Part shown: positions 52,974 to 64,000 of the stretch, piece after piece
Layout of the letters: the number at the start of each line of letters is the position of its first letter
Position numbering within the stretch: the first letter of the stretch is position 1
Assembly: GCF_030345715.1 (NCBI RefSeq)
Contig: NZ_JAUASX010000010.1
Location: 115,384-179,383, forward strand
Direction: 5' to 3'
From: Solimonas sp. SE-A11
GTDB taxonomy: Bacteria; Pseudomonadota; Gammaproteobacteria; Nevskiales; Nevskiaceae
DNA length: 64,000 nucleotides
Position numbers and translations under genes: made by a program
Notes under the pieces: model-generated
What the model saw: the letters and a program-made list of their open reading frames with translations, nothing else
Database searches by the model: none
Told to the model about the DNA's origin: nothing

Positions 52974-53050
<77 letters not shown>

Positions 53051-53642: not shown

Positions 53643-53879
53643 ATGAGTCAGACGTATCTTACGACGGAGGAACTAGCGGCGCGAATTAAGTATGACGTTC
53701 GGACCATTCGCGAACGTTTGAAGGATTCCGTTTTGCTGGAGGGAAAGCACTACGTCCGCCCCTTCGGCGGCCGAAAGATTTTGTACCTGTGGGAAACGAT
53801 CGAGCAGGACATGCTTTGCGGCACCGCTGCGTCCATGGTGGCCATCCCGATGGCGAACGGTGCGGTTTGCCATGGCTAG
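53643..53879 (+). CDS. AlpA/excisionase-like DNA-binding protein
   Basis: 78 residues with a winged-helix start YLTTEELAARIKYDVRTIRERL and a beta-wing KHYVRPFGGRKILYLWETIE. Such proteins next to integrases act as excisionases or regulators of int. Overlaps the integrase start by 8 bp. Confidence 0.78.
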   Translation: MSQTYLTTEELAARIKYDVRTIRERLKDSVLLEGKHYVRPFGGRKILYLWETIEQDMLCGTAASMVAIPMANGAVCHG

Positions 53880-55068
53880 TATTCGAAATTCTAAGGGCGG
53901 CCTGTTCTTCGACTTCCGCTACCAGGGCGTCCGCTGCCGCGAGTACACCAAGCTGGCGGACACCCCGGCCAACCGGAAGCTGATGCAGCGGGTGCTCGAC
54001 AATATCGAAGCGGCGATCGCAACCGGCGCCTTCGACTATGCCCGGCAGTTTCCCGGCAGCACCCAGGCCGAGCGCTTTGTCGCCAAGGCCGCCCCGGCGA
54101 CCATTCTGCCGGCTGCGGTGAAGTCCGAGACGCCCCTCTTCAAGGATTTCGTCCAGACCTGGACCACCGAGTTCAAGCCGTCCTGGCGCAAGTCGCACCT
54201 GGCCACGGTCGAGTCGACCGTGAACGGCCACCTGATCCCGAACTTCGGCGAGAAGCCGGTCGGCGAGATCACCAAGTCGGACATCCTGCAGTTCCGAGCG
54301 GTCCTGGCACAGGCAAAGGGCCGCAATGGCAATGCGACCCTCTCCCCCAAGACCCTCAACCGGGTCGTCCAGATCCTCGGCCAGATCCTGGCGGAGGCCG
54401 CGGAGCGGTTCGAGTTCGTTAACCCGGTCGACAAGATCAAGCGCCTCAAGCAGCCCAAGATCGACATCCATCCGTTCACGATGGACCAGGTCCGGCTGAT
54501 CCTGGACACCGTGCGGACGGATTACCGCAACTACTTCACCGTTCGCTTCCTGACCGGTATGCGCACGGGAGAGATCCACGGCCTGAAGTGGAAGTACGTG
54601 GACTTTGAGCGGGGCCAGATCCTGGTGCGCGAAAACCTGGTCCGGGGCGAGCTCGAGTACACCAAGACCGACGGCTCGCAACGCGAGATCGAAATGAGCA
54701 AGCCGGTGCTCGAGGCACTGCGCGCCCAGCAGGCGATCACAGGGGACCAGGAGTTCGTCTTCTGCAACCGCGAGGGAGAGCCGCTGGACCTGGACAATGT
54801 GACCAACCGGGTCTGGTATCCCCTGCTCCGCCACCTGGGCCTGGAGAAGCGTCGGCCGTACCAGACCCGCCATACCTGCGCGACCTTGTGGCTGGCCGCC
54901 GGCGAGAACCCGGAGTGGGTCGCCCGGCAGTTGGGCCATGCCAACACGATGATGCTGTTCAAGACCTATTCCCGATTCGTCCCGAACCTGACGCGGCGCG
55001 ATGGCTCAGCTTTCGATCGCCTGGTGAGCGGCGCCCTGCACCCGACTCCCGCGCCGGCCACGACCTAA
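53872..55068 (+). CDS. int: Tyrosine site-specific integrase with DUF3596 arm-binding domain
   Basis: 398 residues from ATG 53872 (MASIRNSKGGLFFDFRYQGVRC: first 16 shown enough to identify the DUF3596-type N-terminus). SAM-like core-binding domain about residues 90-175. Catalytic residues: Arg in LTGMRTGEIHGL, Lys in EYTKTDGSQR, HxxR-like RHTCATLW with the box-II Arg just before, His in QLGHANTMML and Tyr in FKTYSRF. Directs insertion of the island, probably near the adjacent initiator tRNA. Confidence 0.93.
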   Translation: MASIRNSKGGLFFDFRYQGVRCREYTKLADTPANRKLMQRVLDNIEAAIATGAFDYARQFPGSTQAERFVAKAAPATILPAAVKSETPLFKDFVQTWTTEFKPSWRKSHLATVESTVNGHLIPNFGEKPVGEITKSDILQFRAVLAQAKGRNGNATLSPKTLNRVVQILGQILAEAAERFEFVNPVDKIKRLKQPKIDIHPFTMDQVRLILDTVRTDYRNYFTVRFLTGMRTGEIHGLKWKYVDFERGQILVRENLVRGELEYTKTDGSQREIEMSKPVLEALRAQQAITGDQEFVFCNREGEPLDLDNVTNRVWYPLLRHLGLEKRRPYQTRHTCATLWLAAGENPEWVARQLGHANTMMLFKTYSRFVPNLTRRDGSAFDRLVSGALHPTPAPATT

Positions 55069-59920: not shown

Positions 59921-61021
59921 ATGTCGGCTTCGCGGGGGCAGCGCAACAAAGCAAAACCAGGAGATTTGCCAGTGATGGTCGGCGCCACGCTGGTCACTCC
60001 AGCCGAACTCAGCAACGCAGCCCGTAGCGCCGCCGACGAAATCCTCATCGCTGGTGAATCCGAGAACACCATCCGAAGCTATCGCAGCGCCATGCGGTAC
60101 TGGTGCGCTTGGGGTGTGGCTCGCTACGGACAGCCCTTGCACCTGCCAGTGTCGACTTCAACGGTCGTCCAATTCATCGTGGATCACCTGGCCCGCGGCC
60201 CTATTGACCAACCGGTAAGCGAACTGCCGCCTGCCATCGATGCTCAACTGGTAAAGGGCGGATTTAAAGCGCACCTGGGCCCTCTAAAGATCAGCACGGT
60301 GATCCATCGACTGTCGGTTCTGTCAAAGCTGCATCAGATGCGACGGCAACCGAACCCCTGTGAAGATCCACAGGTTCGGCATCTGCTATCACGTGCCCGG
60401 CGCGCCGCTTCCAAGCGTGGGGAATTTGCCACGAAAAAGACGGCCGCTACCCGAGAGCCCCTCAAGGCCATGCTGACCACCTGCGATGAATCCCTTGAGG
60501 GCCTCCGGGACCGGGCTCTGTTGCTTTTCGCTTGGTCCAGCGGCGGTCGTCGGCGCTCAGAGGTGTCTGCAGCCACCTTGGAACACTTGTCCAAATCTGA
60601 CGGCGAGAATTACTCGTATAAGTTACATCGCTCCAAGACCAACCAAGATGGAACCAGCACCGTCCATCCCGACAAGCCGATCCGCGGCCAAGCTGCCGAA
60701 GCTCTCAAGGCCTGGCTCAATGCCTCCGCCATAACCGATGGACCGATCTTCCGGCGACTCTGGAAATCCCGCGTTGGCCCTCCCCTCGCCCCGGGCGCTG
60801 TAGCCTCCATCGTACGCAAACGCGCGATGCTGGCAGGCCTAAACGGCGATTGGGCAGGGCATAGTCTGAGGTCTGGGTTCATTTCCGAAGCCGGCCGTCG
60901 CAACATCCCTATTGGTGATGTGATGGCGATGACCGAGCATCGCAGGGTCGAAACAGTCCTAGGTTACTATCGCGTCGGCGAGTTGGCCCGGAGCCCAATT
61001 GGCAACCTCCTCGACGACTAA
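59921..61021 (+). CDS. Second tyrosine site-specific recombinase
   Basis: 366 residues, phage-integrase family of the XerC/D-like kind without arm domain. Core-binding region NTIRSYRSAMRYWCAW. Catalytic residues: Arg in WSSGGRRRSEVSA, HSLR box (GHSLRSGFISEAG), His in AMTEHRRVETVL and Tyr in GYYRVGE. Lower GC and AT-rich codons than the core genes. May mobilise the right-hand part of the island separately. Met1 or a Met at residue 19 may be the true start. Confidence 0.9.
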   Translation: MSASRGQRNKAKPGDLPVMVGATLVTPAELSNAARSAADEILIAGESENTIRSYRSAMRYWCAWGVARYGQPLHLPVSTSTVVQFIVDHLARGPIDQPVSELPPAIDAQLVKGGFKAHLGPLKISTVIHRLSVLSKLHQMRRQPNPCEDPQVRHLLSRARRAASKRGEFATKKTAATREPLKAMLTTCDESLEGLRDRALLLFAWSSGGRRRSEVSAATLEHLSKSDGENYSYKLHRSKTNQDGTSTVHPDKPIRGQAAEALKAWLNASAITDGPIFRRLWKSRVGPPLAPGAVASIVRKRAMLAGLNGDWAGHSLRSGFISEAGRRNIPIGDVMAMTEHRRVETVLGYYRVGELARSPIGNLLDD

Positions 61022-62080: not shown

Positions 62081-62734
62081 CTAGATTCCCAAATCTGGAA
62101 TTGAAGTCACCACAACCCCTTGAATCGAGAAGTCGTGGGTGAGGATGATTGGCTTGTGCTTCTTGTTGGAACTGCGCGGCATCAGCACTATCGCGTCGGC
62201 CGTTCTCCGGAACTCCTTGATAGTGGCCTCGTCATCCACGAGGGCCACTACCTTCTCTCCCTCGTCGGCAGTATGTTGCTGCCGAACCAACACCAAATGG
62301 CCATCGTCAATCCCTGCCTCATTCATTGAGTCACCTTCCGCACGAAGTAGAAAGTAACGATGTGGAGGTCGCGCCAAACGCACCGAAACCGCGACCATCG
62401 CCTCGATGTTCTCGGCGGCGAGAATCGGTAAGCCACAGGATACGGTGCCGACCAGAGGCACCTGCACCGTCAATGCCATCTCCCGAGCTTCCGTTGGCAT
62501 CCGCACAACCTGAAGAGCACGATCTGCGGCGCGCCGCCGCACGAAGCCAGCAGCAATTAATCGGTCGATCACCTGCGCGGCGGAACGGGGTGACTGATAG
62601 CCCAGTTCGTTCTGCACGTCCCGAACAGACGGAGGGGAACCTCCGTGAGCAATCCGGTTGCGGATGAATTTTAGAGCCTTGCGCTCGATCGGCTTGAGCA
62701 GTTCGTCTTGCATCACGCGTATGGTCTTTTGCAT
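62081..62734 (-). CDS. LexA-like autoproteolytic repressor
   Basis: 217 residues. Winged-HTH SPPSVRDVQNELGYQSPRSA and S24 peptidase domain. The cleavage site reads VSC-GLPILAAE, Cys100-Gly101, where LexA has Ala-Gly; UmuD uses Cys-Gly. Catalytic Ser136 in AEGDSMNEAG and Lys173 in EATIKEF have the LexA spacing of 37. Self-cleavage on DNA damage is expected. Distinct from the housekeeping LexA in the DNA-binding helix. It probably controls its own gene and the divergent small gene. Confidence 0.85.
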   Translation of the reverse strand: MQKTIRVMQDELLKPIERKALKFIRNRIAHGGSPPSVRDVQNELGYQSPRSAAQVIDRLIAAGFVRRRAADRALQVVRMPTEAREMALTVQVPLVGTVSCGLPILAAENIEAMVAVSVRLARPPHRYFLLRAEGDSMNEAGIDDGHLVLVRQQHTADEGEKVVALVDDEATIKEFRRTADAIVLMPRSSNKKHKPIILTHDFSIQGVVVTSIPDLGI

Positions 62735-62737
62735 TCA

Positions 62738-62767
62738 TACTGTATTCTTTTGTATACTACCCGTCAA
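62738..62767 (-). promoter_or_regulatory. Promoter/operator region of the LexA-like gene
   Basis: Minus strand TTGACG (62767-62762), 17 bp, TACAGT (62744-62739). The spacer and -10 carry the direct repeat TGTATTCT / TGTATACT (plus strand) 10 bp apart, a likely operator. It differs from the E. coli SOS box CTGT-N8-ACAG. Confidence 0.5.
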
Positions 62768-63306: not shown

Positions 63307-63615
63307 ATGAAAACTCCACTTCTGCTTCAGGGCGCGATTCCTCGCACCGGCGACCCGGTGATTCCGGGTGGGTATTCTGTTGATAGCGACACCTGGGAAG
63401 TTGATGGACAGCCTCTTGTCGCGTCTGCTTCCCAGCTCTCGAGCCTTCTCACGAAAACAGACGCCCCGACGGAATCCGATGACCATCGAACACCTGCACT
63501 CCTCGAGATGCTGACGAAAACAAAGGTCGAGTTGGAAGGCGACGATGATCGATTTAGCCTTAGCGGTCTCGAACTGATGACCAAGACGATGGCTAAAACG
63601 GAACGTGATGATTAG
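63307..63615 (+). CDS. Putative graspetide precursor peptide with three TKTxxxxExDD cores
   Basis: 102 residues from ATG 63307. The leader (residues 1-48) begins MKTPLLLQGAIPRTGD and is not repetitive. The C-terminal half has three near-repeats: TKTDAPTESDD (49-59), TKTKVELEGDD (70-80) and TKTMAKTERDD (92-102), each preceded by a hydrophobic L-x-x-L/M. Thr side chains and a Glu/Asp cluster at a fixed distance are what ATP-grasp ligases join as esters in microviridin-type peptides. The next gene, 2 bp later, encodes such a ligase N-terminus. An in-frame ATG at 63208 would add 33 residues without a ribosome site. Confidence 0.78.
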   Translation: MKTPLLLQGAIPRTGDPVIPGGYSVDSDTWEVDGQPLVASASQLSSLLTKTDAPTESDDHRTPALLEMLTKTKVELEGDDDRFSLSGLELMTKTMAKTERDD

Positions 63616-63617
63616 GC

Positions 63618-63880
63618 ATGTTCCTGATCGTCACCAACAAAAGAGACATCACCAGCGACTTCATTGTCCTAGAGTTGCAGAAGCGCTCTCTCCCCTTTTT
63701 CCGGTTGAACACCGAGGACATCTCGCGCGGCAGCTTGAGGTGTCGGCCTGCTGAAGGGCATTGGTCCTATACCCTGGATGGAAAGGGGTTCGATCTCTCA
63801 GCAGTCCGCGCAGGATACTTTCGACGGCCCGGTATGCCAGAGCCGTTGGCAGGGTTTGATGAGGATGATCAGGCTTACTG
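63618..63880 (+). pseudogene. ATP-grasp graspetide ligase (MvdC/MvdD-like), N-terminal part cut by an insertion sequence
   Basis: Starts MFLIVTNKRDITSDFIVLEL and continues SLPFFRLNTEDIS, then AVRAGYFRRPGMPEP: the pre-ATP-grasp domain of microviridin-type ligases (~320 residues when complete). After about 87 codons (AYC) the sequence changes to GAQRKLTQGAQRKVTHL and stops at 63938; that tail is encoded by the IS terminus. The ATP-binding and catalytic parts are therefore missing here, or lie beyond the IS outside the window. It would ester-link the precursor upstream if whole. Confidence 0.75.
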
Positions 63881-64000
63881 TGTTGGCGCGCAGCGAAAGT
63901 TGACCCAGGGTGCGCAGCGAAAAGTGACCCACCTGTAAGGGTTGAGAGTCTAGTTCAAATCTGTGGGTAAGTTGGTCTTTCGTGCTTTGGATCTGTTCTC
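63881..64000. mobile_element. Terminus of an IS21-family-like insertion sequence
   Basis: From about 63881 the DNA reads TGTTGGCGCGCAGCGAAAG and contains two near-copies of GCGCAGCGAAA(A)GT(T)GACCCA 24 bp apart (63887 and 63911). Multiple terminal repeats ending in GTTGACCC are characteristic of IS21 family ends. The element starts inside the ligase gene. Its transposase genes and the other end are beyond the window; orientation and exact first base cannot be fixed. Confidence 0.65.

Follow-up and report, generated by a model that had tools for sequence, protein, structure and literature searches.

Of the described graspetides, plesiocin resembles the locus treated here in having tandem repeat units. 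Its core spacing is TTxxxxEE, unlike the TxT-x4-E-x-DD spacing found here, which we also take to differ from thuringinin's own spacing, and we know of no PycTM-like partner for plesiocin. Each plesiocin unit carries two ester links (PMC12291112). Microviridin (MvdC/MvdD) shares with the present locus the ATP-grasp ligase family and a precursor encoded beside the ligase, but its PFFARFL leader and TxKxPSD core (PMC7823629) are both absent from the precursor described below. Thuringinin-type loci (precursors of cluster 13 and membrane protein of cluster 18 of Makarova et al. 2022, PMC8939145) have Thr/Glu/Asp repeat cores, one ATP-grasp enzyme, a common leader and an uncharacterised membrane protein specific to such loci, all of which have counterparts in the loci studied here. 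According to the same paper all characterised graspetides are protease inhibitors, and for the uncharacterised membrane protein that accompanies the thuringinin precursors a function in transport was suggested (PMC8939145).

A locus of this kind was analysed in a stretch of 64,000 nucleotides of Solimonas sp. SE-A11 (the window), together with intact relatives from other bacteria and phages. The relatives show the thuringinin-type pattern, in which a repeat core is accompanied by one ligase and a gene for a membrane protein; in the genome of the window the third gene was not found. The window is read as holding a three-unit precursor and a cut ligase; in the relatives the ligase would tie the units, and the peptide would control a PycTM-like effector in phage defence. 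We lean slightly towards this reading when it is taken as a whole.

Precursor and ligase genes in the window

The preliminary description had reported a 102-residue ORF with three C-terminal TKT-4-E-1-DD repeats at a period of 21-22 residues, followed 2 bp downstream by the N-terminus of an ATP-grasp ligase. Both points were confirmed (Table 1). The precursor sequence reads MKTPLLLQGAIPRTGDPVIPGGYSVDSDTWEVDGQPLVASASQLSSLL, followed by the three TKT-x4-E-x-DD units, which start 21 and 22 residues apart and leave linkers of 10 and 11 residues; the last DD forms the C-terminus. Two bases, GC, separate the stop codon from the ATG of the ligase gene at 63618. The start codon of the precursor is uncertain, as in-frame upstream starts would give proteins of 125 or 135 amino acids.

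Table 1 Coordinates of the locus and of the genes surrounding it in the window
Feature	Position	Strand	Remarks
tRNA-Met gene	52974-53050		tRNA prediction; near integrase gene
Tyrosine integrase gene	53860..55068	+	Phage_integrase, E = 6.4e-22
Second tyrosine recombinase gene	59921-61021		After KfrA-like gene
LexA/S24-type repressor gene	62081..62734	-	Upstream of locus; Peptidase_S24, E = 2.2e-27; LexA_DNA_bind, E = 1.5e-8
Precursor gene	63307..63615	+	102 aa, intact open reading frame; predicted graspetide precursor
Predicted leader	63307..63450	+	Residues 1-48 (PLLLQGAIPRTGDPVIPGGYSVDSDTW...); fits leader pattern of relatives' precursors
Core unit 1	63451..63483	+	TKTDAPTESDD; starts at residue 49
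Core unit 2	63514..63546	+	TKTKVELEGDD; starts at residue 70
Core unit 3	63580..63612	+	TKTMAKTERDD; starts at residue 92; directly before stop
ATP-grasp ligase gene	63618..63880	+	First 87 codons and 2 bases; graspetide-type; catalytic part missing
Repeated, likely insertion, sequence	63881..64000	+	Cuts ligase gene, reaches contig end; end divergence sets boundary

The strict pattern T.T.{4}E.DD has no further match in the six frames of the 64-kb window. When the residues of the precursor ORF were shuffled 200,000 times, 237 of the shuffled sequences contained one match and none contained more. No Pfam or NCBIfam family matched the precursor, and a protein search returned a longer reading of the same ORF as the sole match. 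A leader pattern with a P-hydrophobic-hydrophobic motif is present in the precursor of the window and in 52 of the 74 distinct precursors of relatives described below. The ORF is predicted to be a graspetide precursor gene.

The ligase fragment matched positions 3-101 of the NCBIfam profile TIGR04187 (ATP-grasp ribosomal peptide maturase) with an E-value of 5e-13, and the ligase of an intact relative matched this family with an E-value of 7.8e-74; their scores of 48.9 and 248.7 bits both lie below the curated cut-off of 350, which is a full-length cut-off. Eight columns of the window's stretch were invariant in all 22 sequences when the fragment was aligned with 21 intact relatives. A protein search with the X-padded fragment gave 60 matches at E <= 0.01, the best two being 57 and 58% identical over the whole fragment. 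Among the 85 loci introduced below, the closest ligases are those of a betaproteobacterial MAG (58%) and Acidovorax sp. GW101-3H11 (57%). The strongest relative of the ligase with a solved structure is AMdnB (7m4s, E = 3e-33), and the top five PDB matches (AMdnB, an ATP grasp ligase (twice), an MvdD-like pre-ATP grasp domain protein and CdnC) are, we assume, all graspetide ligases. These results support placing the fragment with the graspetide-type ATP-grasp enzymes. The earlier assignment of the ligase to the microviridin type proved too narrow in its strict sense, as the intact relative's ligase did not reach the microviridin cut-offs (170.6 of 425 bits for MvdC and 153 of 475 bits for MvdD).

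TIGR04187 matches occur in 24 of 100 genomes, mostly to the C-terminal part of the model, and the N-terminal ligase fragment had no match at E <= 0.001 in 99 other genomes of the same genus, family, order and class. PF21068 had no match in the genome of the window, a result that is uninformative because the control likewise matched 0 of 14 genomes.

A seemingly broken copy on a probable integrated element

At position 63881 the ligase gene gives way to TGTTGGCGCGCAGCGAAAG..., and the sequence from 63886 to the end is found with 100% identity at eight contig ends, that of the window included (115 bases, 113 at two of the ends). The eight ends differ outside TGTTGGCG, and the final base of the window is also the final base of its contig (C2). 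Because one repeated sequence stands at eight contig ends, it accounts for part of the fragmentation of this genome. On contig C17 a transposase-like ORF, read by eye, adjoins a stretch that matches the first 37 bases of the repeat at 89%, which suggests that the repeated sequence is an insertion sequence. No match to the repeated end sequence was found in plasmid DNA.

The ligase gene thus ends after 87 codons, and a complete catalytic ATP-grasp domain is absent from the copy in the window's genome, in which a full-length relative of the ligase matched only the fragment and one sequence of 24% identity that looks RimK-like by profile position. The profile of the third gene likewise had no match in this genome, while 20 of 20 operon-bearing genomes gave one match each. 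The assembly, which has 41 contigs, is given as 100% complete, but a piece lost between copies of the repeat would stay invisible. As the assembly yielded neither a catalytic ligase domain nor the third gene, the copy in the window looks non-functional, and it is probably the remnant of a graspetide locus, recently cut and now dead. A second broken copy was seen in Idiomarina piscisalsi (L101), in which a stop ends the ligase frame after 71 codons and the gene apparently continues in another frame. The genome of the window also harbours a separate PycTM gene (PF18967, E = 3.2e-22) on contig C3 (93788-94084, L142).

The genes around the locus follow the order tRNA-Met, tyrosine integrase, KfrA-like gene, second tyrosine recombinase and LexA/S24-type repressor. 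Given these genes, the locus probably belongs to an integrated element extending as far as the end of the contig; no integration-end repeat of this putative element was found. The tRNA-Met gene adjoins genes read as nusA and infB, after which the tyrosine integrase and plasmid-type genes follow. A palindrome-like site, CTGTATTCTTTTGTATAC (62740-62757), lies just upstream of the repressor gene and is likely its operator. The pattern searched for was drawn from the site itself, so that its single match (0.05 expected by chance) shows only that the site is unique.

Intact relatives and conservation of the core

A contig scan of one genome per species, queried with the ligase fragment, gave no loci, and the intact ligase encoded on a plasmid of P. 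aeruginosa was used instead. This query yielded 169 confirmed loci, 80 of which were combined with five plasmid loci into a set of 85. Ligase and precursor were found together on plasmids of P. aeruginosa RW109, Croceicoccus marinus (two), Agrobacterium sp. T29 and Sinorhizobium americanum. A frame upstream of the ligase gene with at least one strict T.T.{4}E.DD unit was present in 82 of the 85 loci, with at least two units in 77 and at least three in 58. Neither the opposite strand upstream nor the downstream stretch contained such a frame in any of the 85 loci. This recurrence of the same repeats beside the ligase bears out the earlier reading of the sequence as a graspetide locus. The accompanying suggestion that the core could represent a new group found no support: the core is common (Pseudomonadota, Bacteroidota, Nitrospirae and others) and very similar to a published thuringinin-like cluster (PMC8939145). 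Peptide and ligase are not new in kind; the thuringinin-like precursors described in that paper come closest. A literature search with core-motif strings returned no paper.

The 82 core-positive loci encode 74 distinct precursors with 240 units. Thr was found at position 1 in 234 units and at position 3 in 235, and Asp at position 10 in 226 and at position 11 in 237. The residue between the two Thr is Lys in 201 units and Leu, Arg, Ser, Gly or Phe, among others, in the rest. Since the search pattern fixed Thr or Ser at positions 1 and 3, Glu at position 8 and an acidic residue at position 11, only the counts for position 10 and for the middle Lys are unbiased. The precursors of the betaproteobacterial MAG and of Acidovorax sp. 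GW101-3H11 end in ERDD and contain three units each, of which one has an additional residue. Precursors in Croceicoccus and Sphingopyxis (L042, L066) are longer and have about six units, double the count of the window's precursor.

The third gene encodes a membrane protein with probable distant homology to PycTM

The gene order precursor, ligase, membrane protein is conserved in the relatives. A profile built from four of the 85 loci detected the membrane protein gene behind the ligase gene in 82 loci at E <= 1e-3 and in 79 at E <= 1e-10. By the start codon chosen, the third gene mostly begins within 50 bases before the stop of the ligase gene. The encoded proteins mostly have 205-300 amino acids, some being longer, and share the consensus LEEARRLxDxExERRxxAExKAxxYLA and, further on, RxNxxxxNxKVxxIKMxHE. 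Listed homologues are named hypothetical or uncharacterised protein, or carry bare coordinates.

Several searches related the third protein to PycTM. PADLOC PycTM models matched 26 of 42 third proteins (E <= 0.1, best 1.8e-7), and PADLOC 2TM effector models matched up to five of these 42. Precomputed Pfam annotation places PF18967 (PycTM) on 25 of the 120 homologues listed of 454, the other 95 having no domain. PF18967 was absent among the 25 of 32 families listed in a Pfam scan of the 42 third proteins, so that this match lies near the detection limit. Comparison by hhalign of the third-protein profile with nine PF18967 proteins gave a probability of 88.1 and an E-value of 3e-6 over 64 columns. 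Searched at E <= 0.01 with a profile of the nine PF18967 proteins, the 83 third proteins gave 21 matches, and the same 83 sequences in reverse gave none. The reverse search, with the third-protein profile against the PF18967 proteins, was weak (three of nine at E <= 0.01, none of nine reversed). An AlphaFold model of the third protein is confident and all-helical, and a Foldseek search with this model gave no informative structural match and nothing at E <= 0.001. From these sequence comparisons we conclude that the third protein is probably a distant homologue of PycTM, which is the membrane effector in the Pycsar system of phage defence.

Phage-borne copies and neighbouring genes

The operon is also carried by a complete phage genome and by a prophage contig. 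In the complete genome of Leptospira phage vB_LalZ_80412-LE1 the ligase gene lies between phage genes, with a precursor of three TKT units (two of them strict) upstream and a third-gene match (E = 3.4e-10) downstream. In the Leptospira phage record KF114876 (L131) the precursor is mostly unannotated, a hypothetical gene of 114 bases being marked over its end. Four of six IMG/VR loci (L134, L135, L137, L138) have strict core units, a ligase and a third-gene match; in L136 a weak match to the third gene was all that was found, and L139 has neither core nor third gene. The precursor of L138 is identical to that of the Leptospira phage. In L134 the operon is flanked on one side by a repressor-like gene, a name that is our own reading; its one phage match is named transposon-related DNA-binding protein. 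The gene on the other flank has relatives in 279 phage records, Peduovirus (P2-type) included, and a tape-measure gene lies beyond it. P2-like phages are described as carrying anti-phage genes in variable spots (PMC9122126). The variable spot described there lies near cos, whereas the operon of L134 stands behind the gene with relatives in 279 phage records.

Neighbouring genes were taken as the nearest ORF of 120-800 amino acids on each side of 70 distinct loci, which gave 128 ORFs by a longest-ORF rule and without a gene caller. Models of GajA matched five of these ORFs with E-values down to 1.6e-282 (219 model families in all). By sequence the five GajA neighbours most likely belong to L054, L056, L064, L062 and L063 and fall into two sequence clusters; when they were removed, no GajA model was found among the 25 families listed of 111. 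In L054 and L062 a helicase-looking ORF follows the GajA-like ORF, as judged by eye. Among the matches listed for the other 123 flanking ORFs were two each for PifA, QatD and QatA (the last perhaps the PifA pair) and one each for JetA, GajB, PD-T7-1, HEC-06, PDC-S73, PDC-S39, REase_II (type II restriction enzyme) and a TIR-Argonaute protein. PHROGs integrase models matched five flanking ORFs. A control set made up of 66 of 93 listed ORFs, those beside RimK-like matches, gave no defence-model match. For a second control, 122 ORFs were drawn from eight genomes that carry the operon, up to seven from each of 20 random regions. Matches in this set came from 58 model families, each with a single member, and the 25 families listed were DNA methylase, REase_II and mad3 models. 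The enrichment of defence genes beside the operon looks real, as judged from counts of models and their members and not of distinct proteins, so that some single matches may be one protein. The plasmid copy of P. aeruginosa lies between transport and other genes on one side and suhB on the other, with no named defence genes adjoining. No pyrimidine cyclase (PycC) was annotated in four plasmid loci or present among the 25 families listed for the flanking ORFs.

Proposed chemistry and function

Because the third gene of the intact relatives encodes a relative of a phage-defence effector, the genes for precursor, ligase and membrane protein likely form a peptide-based defence kit. The ligase would tie each unit by two Thr-to-Glu/Asp esters, which makes six in all for three units. 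Judged from conservation, the two Thr of a unit would be the donors and two of the Glu/Asp/Asp residues the acceptors. Two esters per unit are proposed because two conserved hydroxyls precede three acids and because donors are known to precede acceptors in graspetides (PMC7823629). The Lys between the two Thr is probably no donor, since it is variable (Lys in 201 of 240 units).

The relation to PycTM, the defence neighbours and the phage-borne operons lead us to propose that the operon is an intracellular module whose cross-linked peptide governs a membrane effector. The tied peptide would stay inside the cell and would either keep the PycTM-like protein inactive or be required to trigger it. 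Infection would upset the balance between peptide and effector, upon which the membrane would be opened. The third protein would thus be the effector, harming the inner membrane when freed, and the peptide its switch, as homology, gene order and neighbourhood suggest. The cross-links, the control of the effector by the peptide and the role in defence are what we infer. In its widest form the proposal is put forward tentatively: the operon may represent an unrecognised but widespread phage defence, placed in defence islands and phages, in which a ribosomal peptide tied by the ATP-grasp ligase switches a PycTM-type effector and the two to six units act as multivalent clamps; it would then be a peptide-gated counterpart of Pycsar and Panoptes.

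It is possible, but in our view rather unlikely, that the locus encodes an ordinary secreted graspetide, an exported protease inhibitor or bacteriocin, with the membrane protein as its exporter or self-immunity protein. The activity of the characterised graspetides and the transport suggested for the thuringinin-locus membrane protein (PMC8939145) would both agree with this, as would the GG or GA doublet that is present at most 25 residues before the first unit in 28 of the 74 distinct precursors. However, the third protein resembles an effector family, defence and phage genes are among the neighbours, and no exporter or peptidase gene lies within the run of precursor, ligase and membrane protein genes in the four annotated plasmid loci. 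An improbable explanation is that the membrane protein is a partner required for the activity or stability of the ligase. It would account for the strict gene order (82 of 85 loci), and dependence of a graspetide ligase on a partner protein has been reported in another system (PMC13097080); for thuringinin and plesiocin, however, one ATP-grasp enzyme is reported to suffice (PMC8939145), and the relation to PycTM and the defence neighbourhood would be left unexplained. That the ORF is a chance or unrelated acidic repeat protein from which no RiPP is made is hardly credible: it would fit the lack of Pfam, NCBIfam and independent protein matches of the precursor, but not the same repeats beside the same ligase in 82 of 85 loci (controls 0 of 85) nor two units in none of 200,000 shuffles.

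Comparison with known systems

The control of a membrane effector by a tied peptide, which is the reading preferred here, differs from the published description of thuringinin loci in the membrane protein. For thuringinin, transport by this protein was suggested (PMC8939145), while the relatives studied here show a relation to PycTM; the two protein families were compared by description. As far as the literature searched reaches, this relation of such a membrane protein to PycTM, and its company of defence and phage genes, are new. Among the matches listed, no literature joining graspetides with phage defence was noticed. Other RiPP classes have been linked with defence genes by co-expression, and in the part of the paper concerned no graspetide is named (PMC11118758). 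Should the membrane protein prove to be a PycTM-type effector, an entire branch of the graspetides would belong to bacterial immunity. A RiPP would then be an intracellular control molecule, and the function of the peptide could be tested by plaque assay.

Pycsar consists of the cyclase PycC and PycTM, and the relatives described here appear to share, at a distance, the membrane protein family of the latter (PF18967); we do not class the operon as Pycsar. PycTM is said to form a pore, causing abortive infection (PMC11224242). Pycsar uses a nucleotide signal, which in the operon described here would be replaced by a modified peptide. An analogy for such control is offered by Panoptes (OptS/OptE), in which a small product keeps a membrane effector silent until the phage removes it (PMC12657218). 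The parts differ, as Panoptes employs a cyclic dinucleotide and an S-2TM-beta effector, and the present operon would employ a peptide and a PycTM-like effector. Panoptes shows that a control logic of this kind exists (PMC12657218).
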